DNA from: Atopobacter sp. AH10
GTDB lineage: Bacteria; Bacillota; Bacilli; Lactobacillales; Aerococcaceae
DNA: 64,000 nucleotides
Direction: 5' to 3'
Assembly: GCF_003664595.1 (NCBI RefSeq)
Contig: NZ_QXPZ01000003.1
Coordinates: 1-64,000 of the forward strand
Each line of letters begins with the position of its first letter. Position 1 is the first letter of the stretch. The notes beneath the pieces are model-generated. The model saw only the letters and a program-made list of their open reading frames with translations. It was not told where the DNA came from and searched no databases. Below are positions 25,197 to 52,006 of the stretch, in pieces. Both the position numbers and the translations under genes were made by a program.

Positions 25197-26340
25197 TAAA
25201 AAAATCCTTAATCCCGGAGCGACGATTGGCATTATTGGAGCTGGTCAACTGGGGAAAATGTTGGCGCAATCAGCTCAAGCCATGGGTTATCTTGTAGCTA
25301 CTTACGATCCAAATCCTAATGCTTGTGCATTTGCTGTTTCGGATTGGCACTGTACGGGAAGTTTTGATGATGAAAAAGCCTTGTTAGATTTTGCTAACAA
25401 GGTAGATGTTTTAACCTATGAATTTGAAAATGTTAACGGCGAACTTTTAAATAAATTAAATCGTCATCATTATTTACCACAAGGTGTAGATCTACTTCTC
25501 ACAAGCCAAGATCGTTTGAAAGAAAAAGCTTGGTTAAATGAGATTGGCTTAGAGACTGCTCCTTATCGTCCAGTAAATTCAAAAGAAGATTTATTGACAG
25601 CTTTAGAAGAATTAGGCTATCCAGCGATCCTTAAAACGACTAGGATGGGTTATGATGGGAAAGGTCAGATTCGCTTGTCCGATCCTAAAGATTTAGAAGT
25701 GGAAGCAAATCATTTATCACAAATTTTAGCCAGTCCATGCATTTTAGAGGGCTTTGTAGCATTTGACTTGGAAGCTTCTATTATGGTCAATGGGGATTTA
25801 GAAGGGAATTATCAATGTTTCCCAGTCACTATTAATCGTCACTATCAAGGTATTCTTGCAGTCAGTGAGACGGTTAATCCCTCTTCTTTATTGGCACAAA
25901 AAGTGGCAGAAGTTGGCTTGAAAGTTGCTAAAGAAGCAGGTCTTGTTGGTTTGTGTGGGATAGAGTGCTTTGTGTGTGGTGATAAAGTTTATGTCAATGA
26001 ATTAGCACCTCGTCCACATAATTCAGGCCATTTAACCATTGAAGCTTGTAATTTTTCTCAATTTGATGCTCATATTCTTGCGATTACTGGTCGACCATTA
26101 GCTCGGATTCGTCTCCTATCGCCGGCTATTATGGTCAATTTGCTTGGCGAAAATCTAAATCAGGCTTTAAAATGGCAAATGACTGACCCAGATGGCTTCT
26201 ATCATTTGTATAAAAAGGGAGAAGCCAAAGCTAAACGAAAGATGGGGCATGTGACTTACTTAACCAAAACTTTTGATGAAGCTAATTATTTAGCTGGTCA
26301 ATTTGAAGTTTTGAAGAAAGAAGCGGCTGATGCTGAGTAG
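25180..26340 (+). CDS. purK: N5-carboxyaminoimidazole ribonucleotide synthase
   Basis: A 386-aa ATP-grasp enzyme that carboxylates AIR with bicarbonate and ATP. The N-terminal GIIGAGQLGKMLAQSAQAMG nucleotide fold and the ATP-grasp residues around ILKTTRMGYDGKGQ and the ELAPRPHNSGHLTIEACN motif are clear. It overlaps purE by 17 bases; the exact start (GTG 25180, ATG 25183 or TTG 25189) is not settled because the ribosome binding site is weak. It is the last pur gene; purC and purB are not present after it. Confidence 0.93.
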   Translation: MMILSDKKILNPGATIGIIGAGQLGKMLAQSAQAMGYLVATYDPNPNACAFAVSDWHCTGSFDDEKALLDFANKVDVLTYEFENVNGELLNKLNRHHYLPQGVDLLLTSQDRLKEKAWLNEIGLETAPYRPVNSKEDLLTALEELGYPAILKTTRMGYDGKGQIRLSDPKDLEVEANHLSQILASPCILEGFVAFDLEASIMVNGDLEGNYQCFPVTINRHYQGILAVSETVNPSSLLAQKVAEVGLKVAKEAGLVGLCGIECFVCGDKVYVNELAPRPHNSGHLTIEACNFSQFDAHILAITGRPLARIRLLSPAIMVNLLGENLNQALKWQMTDPDGFYHLYKKGEAKAKRKMGHVTYLTKTFDEANYLAGQFEVLKKEAADAE

Positions 26341-26365: not shown

Positions 26366-26394
26366 TTGCTTATTTTTAATAATAAGTTTATAAT
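26366..26394 (+). promoter_or_regulatory. Strong promoter for the ABC exporter leader
   Basis: TTGCTT (26366-26371), 17-base spacer, TATAAT (26389-26394). It starts 26 bases after purK and would begin a leader of about 185 nt ahead of the exporter genes. Confidence 0.75.
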
Positions 26395-26438
26395 CTTCTT
26401 ATAGTTAAAAAATGAACAAGAATAAGTGGGGGAGAAGG

Positions 26439-26510
26439 ATGTCTATCTATTCATTGGGAAAACAAGAAAAGATCTGTCACGGCCATTTTACCCCCGCAAA
26501 GAATAGATGA
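26439..26510 (+). CDS. Putative 23-aa regulatory leader peptide of the ABC exporter operon
   Basis: A 23-codon ORF, MSIYSLGKQEKICHGHFTPA followed by KNR and TGA. Its ATG lies 5 bases after the purine-rich GGGGGAG (26427-26433). It is located between a strong promoter and an intrinsic terminator that precedes two ABC exporter genes. In B. subtilis the homologous exporter pair bmrC-bmrD is controlled by translation of the leader peptide BmrB: ribosome-targeting antibiotics stall the ribosome and prevent terminator formation. I recognise no sequence similarity to BmrB; the assignment is from layout. CCCCC at 26491-26495, near the 3' end of the ORF, could pair with GGGGG of its own ribosome binding site. 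Confidence 0.55.
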   Translation: MSIYSLGKQEKICHGHFTPAKNR

Positions 26511-26531
26511 TACCTTATATGCGATTTTTCA

Positions 26532-26564
26532 AGCGCTCCCTGTGTTAAAGGGAGTGTTTTTTTA
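26532..26564 (+). terminator. Terminator/attenuator in the ABC exporter leader
   Basis: CGCTCCCT pairs with AGGGAGTG (8 bp, one G-U) around GTGTTAA and runs into eight T. It stands 22 bases after the leader ORF stop and 24 bases before the first exporter gene, downstream of the operon's own promoter, so it acts as an attenuator for the exporter and also ends read-through from pur. Confidence 0.8.
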
Positions 26565-26587
26565 GCTAAGGAAGAAAGAGGTGTGGG

Positions 26588-28321
26588 ATGGTTAGTTTAT
26601 TTAAACGATTAGCTACTTATGTTAAAGGACACAAAAGACGTTATTTAACTTGCCTATCGCTTATGCTTGTGGCTAGTTTAGCTAGCCTTGCTCCAGTTCA
26701 AGCCATTCGTTATCTTGTGGATCTATTGGTGGAAGGGGATTTAACAAGAAATAAACTAGGGCTTTTGCTAACAGTCACTTTTTCCTCAGCCCTTTTGGCT
26801 TACATAGCGGAAAGTCTTGTAGATTACTGCATTTATTATGGTGAATATGATATTGGAAAAGAATTGAGAGATCAATTGTATCGCCATTACATTAGTAGGG
26901 GTGGACTTTATTATAAGCGATTACCAATAGGGGATCTTCTGACTAGAGCCAATACGGATGTAACGACGATGGAGATGATCATGGGCTATGGCGTTATGGT
27001 GATGCTCAATTCATCAGTGAATATTGTCAATATATTAAGCATGATGATCTTAACCATTTCCCCTCTTTTAACCCTACTTGCTTTAACGCCAATGCTGATA
27101 CTAGGAATTTTGCTCTATTTTATCGCTGATAAGATAGAAGATGCCTATTCAAAAAAACAAGTAGCCTTATCGTCCATGAATAAAAAATTGTTAGAAATTG
27201 TGGACGGTATACGTGTTGTTCGAGCCTTCGGGGTAGAAAAAAGGATAGAAAAGGCATTTAATGGATTAACGAATAAATTGAGGAAAAAGGAAAACGAGGT
27301 CAACAAGTGGGCTACTTTCTTTGAGGGATCCTTTCCATTTTGTTTAGCTGCTTGTTACTTGCTTGCTTTTATTGGAGGAGCTAAATTATTACAAGATGGA
27401 CGATTAACAGTTGGGGCAATGATGTCTTTCATGATCTATCTGCAAATGGTGATATGGCCAATTGTTTCTTTAGGGGATTTAATGAGTAGTATGCAACAAG
27501 GAAAGGCATCTTGGGAGCGCATTGAAGAATCCTTAAAGATTACGGATCAATTAACGGAATTTGGGCAAGCGGAAATTGCTGATTTTCATTCACTTGTATT
27601 TCAGGATTTCTCCTTCCGCTACAAACTAGAGGATGAAGATGTTTTGAAGCATATTCATTTGACGATTAAATCAGGAGAAAAAATTGGTATTGTTGGTAAA
27701 ACTGGCTCAGGGAAAACTACTCTAGTTCGTTCACTTTTATCACGCTACCCTTTCTTTGAAGCAGAGCCATTCATCAATGGGCAAAAGATCAGTCATTTTT
27801 CAAGGCAAAGTATTCGGGCTTTGTTCAGCTATGTCCCGCAAGAACAAGCAGTATTTAGCAGAAGTATTAAAGAAAATTTGACTCTAGGTCAGGGTGAAGT
27901 CAGGGATAAGGCTATTGAAAAATCTTTGAAAATGGCTGATTTATGGAAAGATATATTGCGCATGCCTGAGGGATTGGATACCCTAGTGGGGGAAAAGGGA
28001 GTCAGCTTATCAGGCGGTCAGAAGCAACGTTTAGCAATGGCTAGAGCCTTTTTGAATAAAGCGCCAATTTTAATTTTGGATGATGCCCTATCAGCTGTTG
28101 ACGTTTCAACTGAAAGGCATATTTTAAAGGCGATTCGAAAAGAAGCAAGTGAACAAACACAATTGATTGTTTCCCACCGCCTGACTGCAGTGAGAGATTG
28201 CGATCAAATTATTGTATTGGATCAAGGGGAAATTGTTGAACGAGGGCGACATGAAGAACTAATGGCAAAAGGGCAATGGTATGCTAACCAATACAGGAAA
28301 CAGATGTTAGAGGAGGGCTAA
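26588..28321 (+). CDS. ABC exporter half-transporter, BmrC/YheI type (degenerate catalytic site)
   Basis: A 577-aa half-transporter: six hydrophobic segments in residues 1-310 and an ATPase domain from about 340. Walker A is GKTGSGKTT (about residue 371), signature LSGGQKQRLAMARA (about 473), Walker B ILILDDALSAVD (about 494). The residue after Walker B is Asp instead of the catalytic Glu, which marks the non-catalytic half of heterodimeric type IV exporters such as BmrCD, LmrCD and EfrAB. The partner is encoded one base downstream. Expected role: drug or lipid export. RBS GAGG 7-8 bases upstream of the ATG. Confidence 0.88.
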   Translation: MVSLFKRLATYVKGHKRRYLTCLSLMLVASLASLAPVQAIRYLVDLLVEGDLTRNKLGLLLTVTFSSALLAYIAESLVDYCIYYGEYDIGKELRDQLYRHYISRGGLYYKRLPIGDLLTRANTDVTTMEMIMGYGVMVMLNSSVNIVNILSMMILTISPLLTLLALTPMLILGILLYFIADKIEDAYSKKQVALSSMNKKLLEIVDGIRVVRAFGVEKRIEKAFNGLTNKLRKKENEVNKWATFFEGSFPFCLAACYLLAFIGGAKLLQDGRLTVGAMMSFMIYLQMVIWPIVSLGDLMSSMQQGKASWERIEESLKITDQLTEFGQAEIADFHSLVFQDFSFRYKLEDEDVLKHIHLTIKSGEKIGIVGKTGSGKTTLVRSLLSRYPFFEAEPFINGQKISHFSRQSIRALFSYVPQEQAVFSRSIKENLTLGQGEVRDKAIEKSLKMADLWKDILRMPEGLDTLVGEKGVSLSGGQKQRLAMARAFLNKAPILILDDALSAVDVSTERHILKAIRKEASEQTQLIVSHRLTAVRDCDQIIVLDQGEIVERGRHEELMAKGQWYANQYRKQMLEEG

Positions 28322-28322
28322 A

Positions 28323-30080
28323 ATGACAGCAACTATTAAGCGTTTGCTTGCCTATTTACTAGTGCAACCTTGGCTCTTTATCACTGGTTTAGTTTTCCTC
28401 TTCCTTCAAACGAGTTTAGGGGTTAGTCAGACACTTTTGATAAAGCAAATCATTGATCAGGTTTTGGTGCCTTTAGGTCAAAGGCATGTGTACTATCAGG
28501 ATAAATTTATACATCTGTTACTTTTAATTGGATTAACAGCAATTGGGATAATGGTATTTCGCTTTATTGCCATGTATTCCTTACAAGTTCTGTCCAATAA
28601 AATTGCTAAAAAGATGAGAGATCAAATGTTTGAGCGGATGAATCAACTTCCGATGGCTTATTTTGACCAGCATGCAAGCGGAAGTTTGGTATCACGTTTA
28701 ACGAATGACGTAGAGGAAATTCGTCGACAATTTTATGTAGCAGGTCTTGCTATGCTATTAATGAATGTCGTCATGGTTTTAGGGACTTACCTCATGTTGT
28801 TTCATTTAAGTCAGGAGGTTTGTTTGGCCATGCTTGTGCTTTTGCCTATTGTAGTTATTTGGCAAGGACTTTACACAAAGAAAATGTCACCGATTCAAAT
28901 CAAAGTTCAAGAGCAACGGTCTGATTTAACCTCGCAGATGAATGAAAGCTTACAGAACGTGGAAATTGTTCAAGCTTTTGGAATGCAAGATGACCTGATT
29001 AAGAAATTTATGACTGCTAGTCAACAACTTATGCAGTGGCAATTAAAGGGCTTGCGATTAGAAACATGGGCTTCCTATACTTTAAGCAAGCTGATGATTT
29101 ATGTAACGCAAGTAGCTTTAGTAGCTTTTATAGCTTTGGGCTTTTTGCAAGGGAAGGAAGCTGTGACTGCGGGTTTGCTTTACGCCTTGGTGGAAGGAAC
29201 TTCCCGAGTACTTGAACCTTTGGGAATGGTCGTAAGAATTGTAGGATCAGTCCAACGCTCATTGGCAGCAGGTCAACGAATTTTCCAATTTCTTGATGAA
29301 AATATAGAAGATGAAGTGGAAGATGATCTCTCTATCCAAGACGGGAAAATTGACATCAAGAATCTTGATTTTGCTTATAAAAACGAGCACTATATTTTAA
29401 AAGATTTCTGTTTAGAAGTTGGAGCACATGAAACGATAGCTATCGTTGGTGAGACAGGATCTGGGAAATCTACCTTAATGAACCTGCTTTTTCGCTTTTA
29501 TGACCCAAATGCTGGAGAAATCTTGATAGATGGCCAAAATATTTTTCAAGCTAGTCGGGCAGCCCTCAGGAAAGGGATGGCTATAGTTCTCCAAGAACCT
29601 TATATTTTTTCTGGAACGATTTTATCGAATATCACGCTAGATGATCCGACAATTACTGAAGAAATGGCTCAAGAAGCCCTAGAAAAAGTTGGAGCTTGGA
29701 AGTGGATTAGCCAATTGGAAATGGGAATTCATCAGCCAGTGGTTGACAAGGGAGAAGAATTTTCCTCTGGTCAAAGGCAACTCCTGAGTTTCGCACGTGC
29801 TTTGGTGAGAAATCCTAAAATATTGATTTTAGATGAAGCGACTTCTCACGTCGATAGCGAAACAGAAGGCTTGATTCAAGAAGCCATGGCAATCTTAAAG
29901 GAAAATAGAACCACTTTAATTATTGCCCATCGTTTATTGACCGTACAAGATGCCGATCAAATTATTGTGTTGTCTCAAGGGAAGATTGTTGAAAAAGGCC
30001 AACACAAAGACCTTCTAGAGGCGAAAGGCTTTTATCATCAAATGTATCTCGATCAAGCAAATAGTTTTTTACTAGAATAG
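28323..30080 (+). CDS. ABC exporter half-transporter, BmrD/YheH type (catalytic half)
   Basis: A 585-aa partner of the preceding protein, with six membrane segments and an ATPase domain. Walker A GETGSGKST (about residue 376) and Walker B ILILDEATSHVD (about 500) with the catalytic Glu are canonical, but the signature motif is FSSGQRQLLSFARA rather than LSGGQ. Combined with the Asp in the partner, exactly one of the two ATP sites of the heterodimer is degenerate, as in BmrCD. The genes are separated by a single base, so equal expression is likely. Terminator at 30168. Confidence 0.9.
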   Translation: MTATIKRLLAYLLVQPWLFITGLVFLFLQTSLGVSQTLLIKQIIDQVLVPLGQRHVYYQDKFIHLLLLIGLTAIGIMVFRFIAMYSLQVLSNKIAKKMRDQMFERMNQLPMAYFDQHASGSLVSRLTNDVEEIRRQFYVAGLAMLLMNVVMVLGTYLMLFHLSQEVCLAMLVLLPIVVIWQGLYTKKMSPIQIKVQEQRSDLTSQMNESLQNVEIVQAFGMQDDLIKKFMTASQQLMQWQLKGLRLETWASYTLSKLMIYVTQVALVAFIALGFLQGKEAVTAGLLYALVEGTSRVLEPLGMVVRIVGSVQRSLAAGQRIFQFLDENIEDEVEDDLSIQDGKIDIKNLDFAYKNEHYILKDFCLEVGAHETIAIVGETGSGKSTLMNLLFRFYDPNAGEILIDGQNIFQASRAALRKGMAIVLQEPYIFSGTILSNITLDDPTITEEMAQEALEKVGAWKWISQLEMGIHQPVVDKGEEFSSGQRQLLSFARALVRNPKILILDEATSHVDSETEGLIQEAMAILKENRTTLIIAHRLLTVQDADQIIVLSQGKIVEKGQHKDLLEAKGFYHQMYLDQANSFLLE

Positions 30081-49762: not shown

Positions 49763-49797
49763 AAGCGAGCGACATTTGGGATGTGGCTCGCTTTTGT
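49763..49797 (+). terminator. Terminator between rpsO and pnp
   Basis: AAGCGAGC-GACAT, loop TTGGG, ATGTG-GCTCGCTT, followed by TTG. A 12-13 bp stem with one mismatch. The T tract is short, so read-through into pnp is plausible. Confidence 0.75.
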
Positions 49798-49819
49798 TGT
49801 ATAAGAAAAAATGTGGCCT

Positions 49820-49881
49820 GGACTCTACTAAATAAAACAGAAGAGAAGATGGAGTCTCCTCCCTTGTGTTTTGTTTAGTAG
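49820..49881 (+). promoter_or_regulatory. Structured leader of pnp
   Basis: CTACTAAATAAAACA (49825-49839) pairs with TGTTTTGTTTAGTAG (49867-49881) over 15 positions with one G-U pair. A second pairing, GACTC (49821-49825) with GAGTC (49852-49856), crosses the first, so the leader could switch or form a pseudoknot. In E. coli pnp is autoregulated through a leader stem cut by RNase III; a similar role here is inference. Confidence 0.55.
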
Positions 49882-49906
49882 GCGGGCTAGTAAAGGAGAA
49901 ATTAAG

Positions 49907-52006
49907 ATGTCAGAAAAGAAGGTTTATACATATGAGTGGGGCGGACGTCCGCTACAAGTCGAAATTGGCCAATTAGCTAAACAAGCTAATGGAGCTGTTT
50001 TAGTGCGTTATGGGGATACTGTTGTTTTATCAGCTGCTGTTGGGTCTAAAACACCAGGTACAGGAGATTTCTTCCCACTAACGATTAACTATAATGAACG
50101 GATGTATGCTGCAGGGAAAATTCCAGGTGGCTTTATCAAGCGGGAAGGACGTCCTAGCGAACACGCTACTTTGACAGCTCGCTTAATTGACCGTCCGATT
50201 CGCCCAATGTTTGCGGATGGCTATCGAAACGAAGTCCAAGTGACTAATATGGTCTTTTCTGTTGATCCAGACTGCTCACCTGAAATGGCAGCTATGTTAG
50301 GCTCTAGTTTAGCACTTTGTGTGTCAGATATCCCTTTTGATGGGCCAATTGCTGGTGTGAATGTTGGTCGTGTTGACGGCAAATATGTGATTAACCCTAC
50401 AGTTGCTCAACAAGAGGCTTCTGATATTGAATTAACGGTAGCTGGAACCAAAGATGCTATTAACATGGTAGAAAGTTCAGCTCAACAAGTTTCAGAAGAT
50501 GACATGTTAGGGGCTTTGCTCTTTGGACATGAAGAGATCAAACGTTTGAATGCCTTCCAAGCTCAAATTCGAGATGAAATTGGCAAGGAAAAGATGGAAG
50601 TTGAATTGGTTCAAATTGATCCAGAATTAAGCGCAGAGGTCAATGAAAAATACGCTGAAAAAATGCGTCAAGCTGTCTTAACTTTCGATAAACTTGAACG
50701 TGAAGCTAATATGGAACAAGTGAAGGAAGATATTATAGCAGAAGCAACGGAAAAAGTAGACAGCATGGAGGCAGAAGAAGCGTCCCTTTACTTAAAAGAA
50801 ATGGGCGAAATTGTGGCGGATTTAGAAAAACGAGTGGTTCGCCAATTGATTACTAAGGACAAGGTACGTCCTGATGGGCGGGCTATCGATGAAATTCGTC
50901 CTCTTTCATCTGAAGTTGCTCTATTGCCAAGGGCTCATGGTTCTGGTCTATTTACTCGTGGGCAAACGCAAGCGTTAACGTCTGCCACATTAGCGCCTTT
51001 AGGAGAGTACCAAGTCATTGATGGGTTAGGGCAAGAAGAAGGGAAACGCTTTATTCACCACTATAACTTCCCACAATTCTGTGTGGGGGCTACAGGCCGA
51101 GCTGGTAGCCCAGGCCGACGAGAAATTGGGCACGGAGCTTTAGGTGAGCGTGCTTTGAAACAAGTCATTCCTAGTGTAGAAGAATTCCCTTATACCATTC
51201 GTTTGGTTTCTGAAGTCTTAGAATCAAATGGGTCATCTTCACAAGCGTCTATCTGTGCAGGTACTTTGGCTTTGATGGATGCTGGTGTGCCGATTAAAGC
51301 TCCAGTAGCAGGTATTGCTATGGGCTTGGTGAAACAAGACGAAGATTACACCATCTTAACGGATATTCAAGGTCTTGAAGATCACTTGGGGGATATGGAC
51401 TTTAAGGTAGCAGGGACTAAAGATGGCATTACTGCTTTACAAATGGACATTAAGATCCAAGGGATTACAAAGAACATCTTAGAAGAAGCTCTTGCTCAAG
51501 CGAAAACAGCTCGGATGCAAATCTTAGATCAATTGACGTCTACTTTAGCTGGCCCTCGTCCTGAATTAAGCCCATATGCACCTAAGATTGAGATGATGAC
51601 GATCGATCCAGCTAAGATCAAGGTAGTTATTGGTCGTGGTGGAGAAACCATCAATAAGATTATTGATGAAACAGGTGTGAAAATTGACATCGATCAAGAA
51701 GGTAATGTCTCTATTGCTTCTAGCGATAGCGATATGATTCAACGGGCTCGTGAAATCATTGAAGATTTGACGCGTGAAATTAAAGTTGGAGATATTTATG
51801 ACGGTGAAGTGAAACGCATTGAAAAATTTGGAGCCTTTGTAGAAATTGCTCCAGGTAAAGATGGCTTAGTTCATATTTCTCAGCTTTCAGATAAACGTGT
51901 CGAAAGAGTGGAAGATGAAGTGTCTATCGGTGACCATATACAGGTTAAAGTAGTGGAAATTGATAACCGTGGACGGATCAACCTATCTCACAAAGTTTTA
52001 CTCTAA
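49907..52006 (+). CDS. pnp: Polyribonucleotide nucleotidyltransferase (PNPase)
   Basis: A 699-aa 3'-5' phosphorolytic exoribonuclease, trimeric component of the RNA degradation machinery. Two RNase PH domains (first about 1-220, second about 310-545, with [16 protein letters not shown]), an alpha-helical linker, a KH domain ([20 protein letters not shown], in part) and an S1 domain ([20 protein letters not shown], in part). The frame extends to 49871, inside the leader stem, but the ATG at 49907 has AAAGGAG 8 bases upstream and gives the normal length. Confidence 0.97.

Follow-up and report, generated by a model that had tools for sequence, protein, structure and literature searches.

How is the BmrCD-like ABC exporter of Atopobacter sp. 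AH10 controlled, and what part do the short ORF and the hairpin in front of it play? The DNA analysed here (the window) is a stretch of 64,000 nucleotides from contig NZ_QXPZ01000003.1, in which the first-pass annotation proposed a leader peptide and a terminator attenuator before the exporter genes. In Bacillus subtilis, lincomycin, erythromycin and chloramphenicol induce bmrCD through its leader; an untranslated bmrBCD leader shows more termination and is non-inducible, and rare codons in bmrB lead to higher basal read-through (PMC4191407). According to our analysis, transcription of the exporter is very probably attenuated by a ribosome-operated element at positions 26401-26564 of the window, which would belong to one class with the subtilis-group bmrCD leader.

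The exporter genes and the parts of the leader

The two half-exporter genes are indeed a heterodimeric BmrC/BmrD-like pair on the forward strand. The BmrC/YheI-like half (26588-28321) carries the Walker B motif LILDD, with Asp in place of the catalytic Glu, and the signature LSGGQ, and the BmrD-like half (28323-30080) carries LILDE and the degenerate signature FSSGQ. One degenerate site, here combining the Walker B of half 1 and the signature of half 2, is usual for heterodimeric type IV exporters. The best solved relative of half 1 is B. subtilis YheI (BmrC), matched over its whole length (E = 6e-114 over 572 aa); the best NCBIfam models for the pair are Tet(46) A and B, which score far below the cut-off.

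Upstream of the pair, also on the forward strand, a promoter-like site spans 26366-26394, with TTGCTT at 26366-26371 and TATAAT at 26389-26394. Both hexamers and the 17-nt spacer are as previously described. The -10 hexamer is perfect and the -35 hexamer poor, and calling the promoter strong was an overstatement, because the -35 hexamer matches the consensus at 3 of 6 positions and a consensus promoter scan of the window (15 sites, 12.1 expected) left this site out. The leader Shine-Dalgarno (SD) sequence GUGGGGGAGAAGG (26426-26438, including GGGGG at 26428-26432) stands immediately 5' of the ATG of a 23-codon ORF, MSIYSLGKQEKICHGHFTPAKNR (26439-26510, ATG at 26439 and TGA at 26510). In its 3' part lies the sequence GGCCAUUUUACCCCCGC (26482-26497, with CCCCC at 26491-26495), complementary to the SD and hereafter called the anti-SD; the end of the stop codon is 12 nt further. 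We number the SD as segment 1 and the anti-SD as segment 2.

An intrinsic terminator follows at 26531-26563, with the stem 26531-26541/26549-26559 and the T run 26557-26563. The hairpin and its T run are as first reported, with seven T instead of eight, and the stem lies about 20 nt past the stop codon. The stem (-16.7 kcal/mol, z = -4.5) is clearly beyond chance, none of 200 dinucleotide shuffles having equalled it.

The leader peptide, unfamiliar at first reading, had no family match in NCBIfam and no detectable relatives. A search of 60 relatives with the leader DNA gave no homologue of the leader sequence, and Rfam gave no match at gathering score for 26366-26590. The single-sequence fold of the whole leader is ordinary compared with shuffles (z = -0.68); it was therefore not taken as proof, and the comparative data bear the argument. 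On the two strands of the window, a detector built for the full element matched this leader alone. Two further observations concern RNA elements elsewhere in the window. On the forward strand, an SD-led ORF of 15 codons (2060-2107) has an SD-complementary 3' part (-16.4) and is followed by a terminator at 2196-2229, right after which no long gene start was found. On the reverse strand, positions 49764-50084 match Rfam rliD, a Listeria antisense RNA family (62.8 bits).

Conservation of the element among Bacilli

Upstream regions of BmrC-like genes of Bacilli were taken from whole genomes and named contigs (166 regions) and examined for an SD-led ATG ORF 18-45 codons long and a terminator after it. 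The leader ORF was picked solely for its SD strength and for a terminator following it, and complementarity played no part in the choice. Conservation of the layout in relatives had been set beforehand as a refuting test of the attenuator reading. The element was present in 108 of the 166 regions and in 19 of the 21 closest homologues, with a median leader ORF length of 25 codons, while about one third of the homologues examined had no leader ORF and terminator that passed these criteria; in YneF-linked paralogues the element is absent. Dropping leaders more than 75% similar, together with locus L083, gave 82 non-redundant leaders. Among 80 named loci, the detector found the element directly upstream of the exporter in 53 (51 counted plus L132 and L172, in which the exporter gene lies nearer the contig end), and elsewhere at two other sense-strand places; there was no match on 528 kb of antisense control. 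The nearest relative with the element, the other genome of the genus, has an exporter of 43% identity and an unrelated leader peptide.

Several loci deviate from this arrangement or extend it. At L129 (210-311) and L154 (231-314), a complete SD/anti-SD leader with terminator stands before a gene other than the homologue of the BmrC query. At L042 (1050-1520), from a Granulicatella relative, the terminator is kept and no leader ORF is detectable, which is possibly a natural loss. In Lactobacillales (L011, L012, L030, L049 and others), a GTG is often found right after the T run of the terminator (TTTTTTGTG). In Bacillales (L193-L212, L117-L212; e.g., L202, L118 and L193), a second small ORF of 16-26 aa with its own SD lies between the terminator and bmrC, 20-110 nt upstream of bmrC. 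Its C-terminus is conserved, mostly LESG, EGG or DGG before TAG (39 of 186 upstream regions), and the peptide itself seems to be conserved, because synonymous codons vary. This second ORF is absent in the window.

Pairing of the Shine-Dalgarno sequence with its own ORF

The first-pass annotation suggested that CCCCC in the ORF could pair with the SD, and this pairing turned out to be part of a leader-specific complementarity across the whole class. In the window, the SD:ORF duplex is -17.7 (codon-shuffle P-value = 0.015), and a duplex as low is seen in just 1 of 40 SD-led genes of the window; for GUGGGGGAGAAGG paired with 26482-26497 (GGCCAUUUUACCCCCGC), the duplex computed in the folding analysis is -18.8 kcal/mol. 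Among the 82 leaders, the SD pairs with its own ORF 3' part at -17.6 kcal/mol, compared with -13.4 kcal/mol after swapping between leaders (P-value = 4e-13, swap test). Codon shuffles across the class gave a mean z of -2.3. In a paired control, the duplex of the leader SD was -14.9 and that of the exporter gene's own SD was -7.7 (P-value = 1.6e-12). The pairing reaches past the core that matches 16S rRNA, as in GGGATTAC/TTAATCCC (L011, L056), GAAAGGGGT/ACCTCTTTC (L037), AAGGAGGTTATGA/TCATAACCTGCCTT (L116) and GUGGGGG/CCCCCGC (window). The distance from the anti-SD to the end of the stop codon has a class median of 13 nt, and therefore a ribosome finishing the ORF would cover the anti-SD. At the level of complementarity, the anti-antiterminator overlapping the leader ORF appears to be the pairing of the SD with the ORF 3' end.

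Which pairing may serve as antiterminator

A second class-wide match links the ORF 3' end to the 5' arm of the terminator (P-value = 2e-5, swap test). Other candidate pairings were rejected as features of the class: SD with terminator 3' arm (P-value = 0.83, swap test), ORF 3' end with terminator 3' arm (P-value = 0.61), and early with late ORF (P-value = 0.83), although the last is strong in the window. The earlier proposal that GGGAG of the SD pairs with CTCCC of the terminator arm found no support as a mechanism of the class, as SD with terminator 5' arm gave a P-value of 0.38 class-wide and the window was no better than swapped combinations; this pairing occurs only inside a predicted fold, H2, described below.

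Equilibrium folds of the complete transcript keep the terminator wherever the ribosome is placed, and truncated transcripts were therefore used. In these folds, which block the ribosome footprint, are not kinetic simulations and have no shuffled control apart from the swap test, a ribosome on the start codon led to the 5' arm being held upstream more often than no ribosome (+0.13, P-value = 8e-7) or one placed on the stop codon (+0.16). The class pairing and the truncated folds together point to an order like that of the trp attenuator, with the SD as segment 1, the ORF 3' end as segment 2 and the terminator arms as segments 3 and 4. The enterobacterial trp attenuator has the same 1:2, 2:3 and 3:4 geometry, and a ribosome at its leader stop codon covers segment 2; it differs in that Trp codons are sensed and the leader SD is not segment 1.

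The window is atypical in this respect. The match of its ORF 3' end to the 5' arm is absent (double-centred difference +2.3), and in the truncated folds the terminator stays free when a ribosome occupies the start codon. Instead, the predicted fold H2 pairs 26429-26434 with 26536-26541, 26435-26438 with 26513-26516, 26440-26443 with 26509-26512, and 26445-26452 with 26501-26508. It thereby takes up the early-ORF segment AUCUAUUC (26445-26452) and the end of the ORF with the stop codon and the next bases, GAAUAGAU GAUACCUU (26501-26516, paired with 26435-26452). The duplex of AUCUAUUC with 26501-26508 has a P-value of about 0.01 and ranks 4th of 79 leaders. H2 is incompatible with the SD:CCCCC hairpin and is favoured once a ribosome covers 26482-26497, at about codons 12-19. 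We tentatively propose, somewhat short of even chances, that the antiterminator of the window is H2 (26429-26456 with 26497-26541), favoured by a ribosome at about those codons. In the leader of the same genus at L009, the folds likewise bring the SD to the 5' arm only if the anti-SD is covered. For both L009 and the window, pairing of the SD with the 5' arm is weak evidence, since a poly-G SD can find a partner in many pyrimidine-rich arms; it may operate in this genus and does not appear to be the class rule.

The bmrB frame in the subtilis group

As published, the bmrB ORF starts with GTG, encodes 53 aa and contains the terminator (PMC4191407). L193, with a BmrC sharing 93% identity with YheI, stood in for B. 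subtilis 168. The SD:anti-SD arrangement recurs in the leaders of L193-L195 (bmrC 93, 82 and 81% to YheI), and the strong-SD ORF of the subtilis group is an ATG frame of 23-25 codons. In L193 it begins ATG CCA AGG and has 23 codons, and its SD GGAAGGAGGGTTTGCT is paired to the sequence beginning GGCAAACCC (duplex -20.3). In L193-L195 and L198-L200 this ATG leader stops before the terminator, so the terminator-inside-leader feature may be an effect of annotation. A GTG ORF of 52 aa, close in length to published bmrB, is present in L193 in another frame, overlapping the terminator; it is shorter in L194 and was not found in L198. In the published experiments, a chromosomal in-frame BmrB-GFP fusion gave no detectable fluorescence, a plasmid copy fluoresced, and the start-less bmrB mutant had also lost alternative starts and ribosome binding sites (PMC4191407). 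On these grounds, it is plausible that the working leader of B. subtilis is the ATG ORF, and the published frame is possibly mis-assigned. The bmrB-like layout first claimed for the window thus agrees with the short ATG ORF of the subtilis-group genomes and not with the published 53-aa GTG ORF containing the terminator.

Comparison with known systems

The window resembles B. subtilis bmrBCD (PMC4191407) in its heterodimeric exporter of the same family, short leader ORF, terminator and predicted anti-antiterminator. Its terminator lies beyond the leader stop codon, whereas that of published bmrB is inside the ORF. Streptococcus pneumoniae patAB likewise has a terminator close before a heterodimeric ABC exporter, and mutations in it raise patA expression; however, its predicted transcription start is just 67 nt upstream, no leader peptide is reported, and it is induced by fluoroquinolones and by DNA damage, not by drugs that act on the ribosome (PMC4319486). 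The B. subtilis vmlR leader shares the logic of anti-antiterminator, antiterminator and terminator controlled by an upstream ORF, but that ORF encodes a tripeptide within the first hairpin, its SD is free, and the gene under its control codes for a ribosome-protection factor of the ABCF type instead of an exporter (PMC9226507). Judged by its parts, the element of the window is a case of bmrBCD-type attenuation, a kind already known and now given comparative support.

Proposed mechanism and alternative explanations

By default, when the leader is untranslated, or translated and released, the SD would pair with its own ORF 3' part as anti-antiterminator, the terminator would form, and the exporter would be off. 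Were a ribosome held up within the leader ORF, it would break the SD:ORF hairpin, the antiterminator would take the 5' arm of the terminator, and with this arm occupied RNA polymerase would read into the exporter. In most relatives the antiterminator would be the ORF 3' end with the 5' arm, freed when a ribosome is held on the start codon. The mechanism is likely up to control of the terminator. For the window, we infer that the leader ORF is translated, that antitermination takes place and that drugs induce it.

One alternative is that the hairpin merely terminates the purine operon (purH-purD-purE-purK, ending at 26340) and that the 23-codon ORF is incidental. There is no second terminator between the purK stop codon (26340) and the exporter, and therefore the attenuator hairpin probably stops pur read-through too. 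However, the genes upstream of the element vary among relatives: where they are unrelated or divergent (lipoamide dehydrogenase, amino-acid permease, rhodanese-like, FtsX and CobW-like, named by eye from sequence), the ORF, anti-SD and terminator still stand before the exporter. Conservation of the element follows the exporter rather than the gene upstream, and we regard the purine-operon explanation as highly improbable. Terminator strength alone could also set the exporter level, with no role for the ORF, as suggested by the patA terminator, which has no reported leader peptide (PMC4319486), and by L042. This is scarcely credible here: the window has an SD-led ORF and thus lacks the patAB-type trait of a short leader without a translated ORF, and across Bacilli the short ORF with a strong SD and an SD-complementary 3' end is conserved, its complementarity being far above that at the exporter genes' own starts.

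Two other alternatives keep the leader and change its signal or its target. The same attenuator could respond to slow decoding at codons 13-19 (TGT CAC GGC CAT TTT ACC CCC), sensing general translation rate or aminoacyl-tRNA supply and not drugs. CCC makes up 1.2 of every 1000 codons of the window, H2 is favoured by a ribosome on this stretch, and the effect of rare codons in bmrB is in line with this idea; but the CCC codon is accounted for by the CCCCC of the anti-SD, and the peptides of the class differ at these positions, which leaves a non-drug signal unlikely. Pairing of the SD with the ORF 3' part might instead act mainly on translation, allowing one round per leader and thereby leaving one pioneer ribosome to report the state of the ribosome pool. 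No other feature is as strongly conserved as this pairing, which takes in the SD itself, and we give this reading a minor though real chance. The conserved terminator and the complementarity of the ORF 3' end to the 5' arm nevertheless argue for transcription, and the translational and transcriptional readings are compatible. The ribosome-operated transcription attenuator is the explanation that we retain.

Implications

No description of this attenuator class was found in the open-access literature. In a bolder and rather doubtful reading, BmrC/BmrD exporters of Bacilli might all be controlled by a single, hitherto undescribed class of attenuator, with the leader SD as segment 1, masked by the 3' end of the 20-30-codon ORF that it serves; the published bmrB frame would be wrong, the true leader being the 23-codon ATG ORF, and the genus of the window would have been rewired to ribosome holding in mid-ORF and not at the start codon. 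The published assignment of the bmrB leader would become directly testable. With the present comparison, bmrBCD passes from one characterised case to a class that extends from Aerococcaceae and Enterococcus to Paenibacillus. The signature of this class, an SD, a short ORF with an SD-complementary 3' end, a terminator and an exporter half, would predict which exporters are induced by ribosome drugs.
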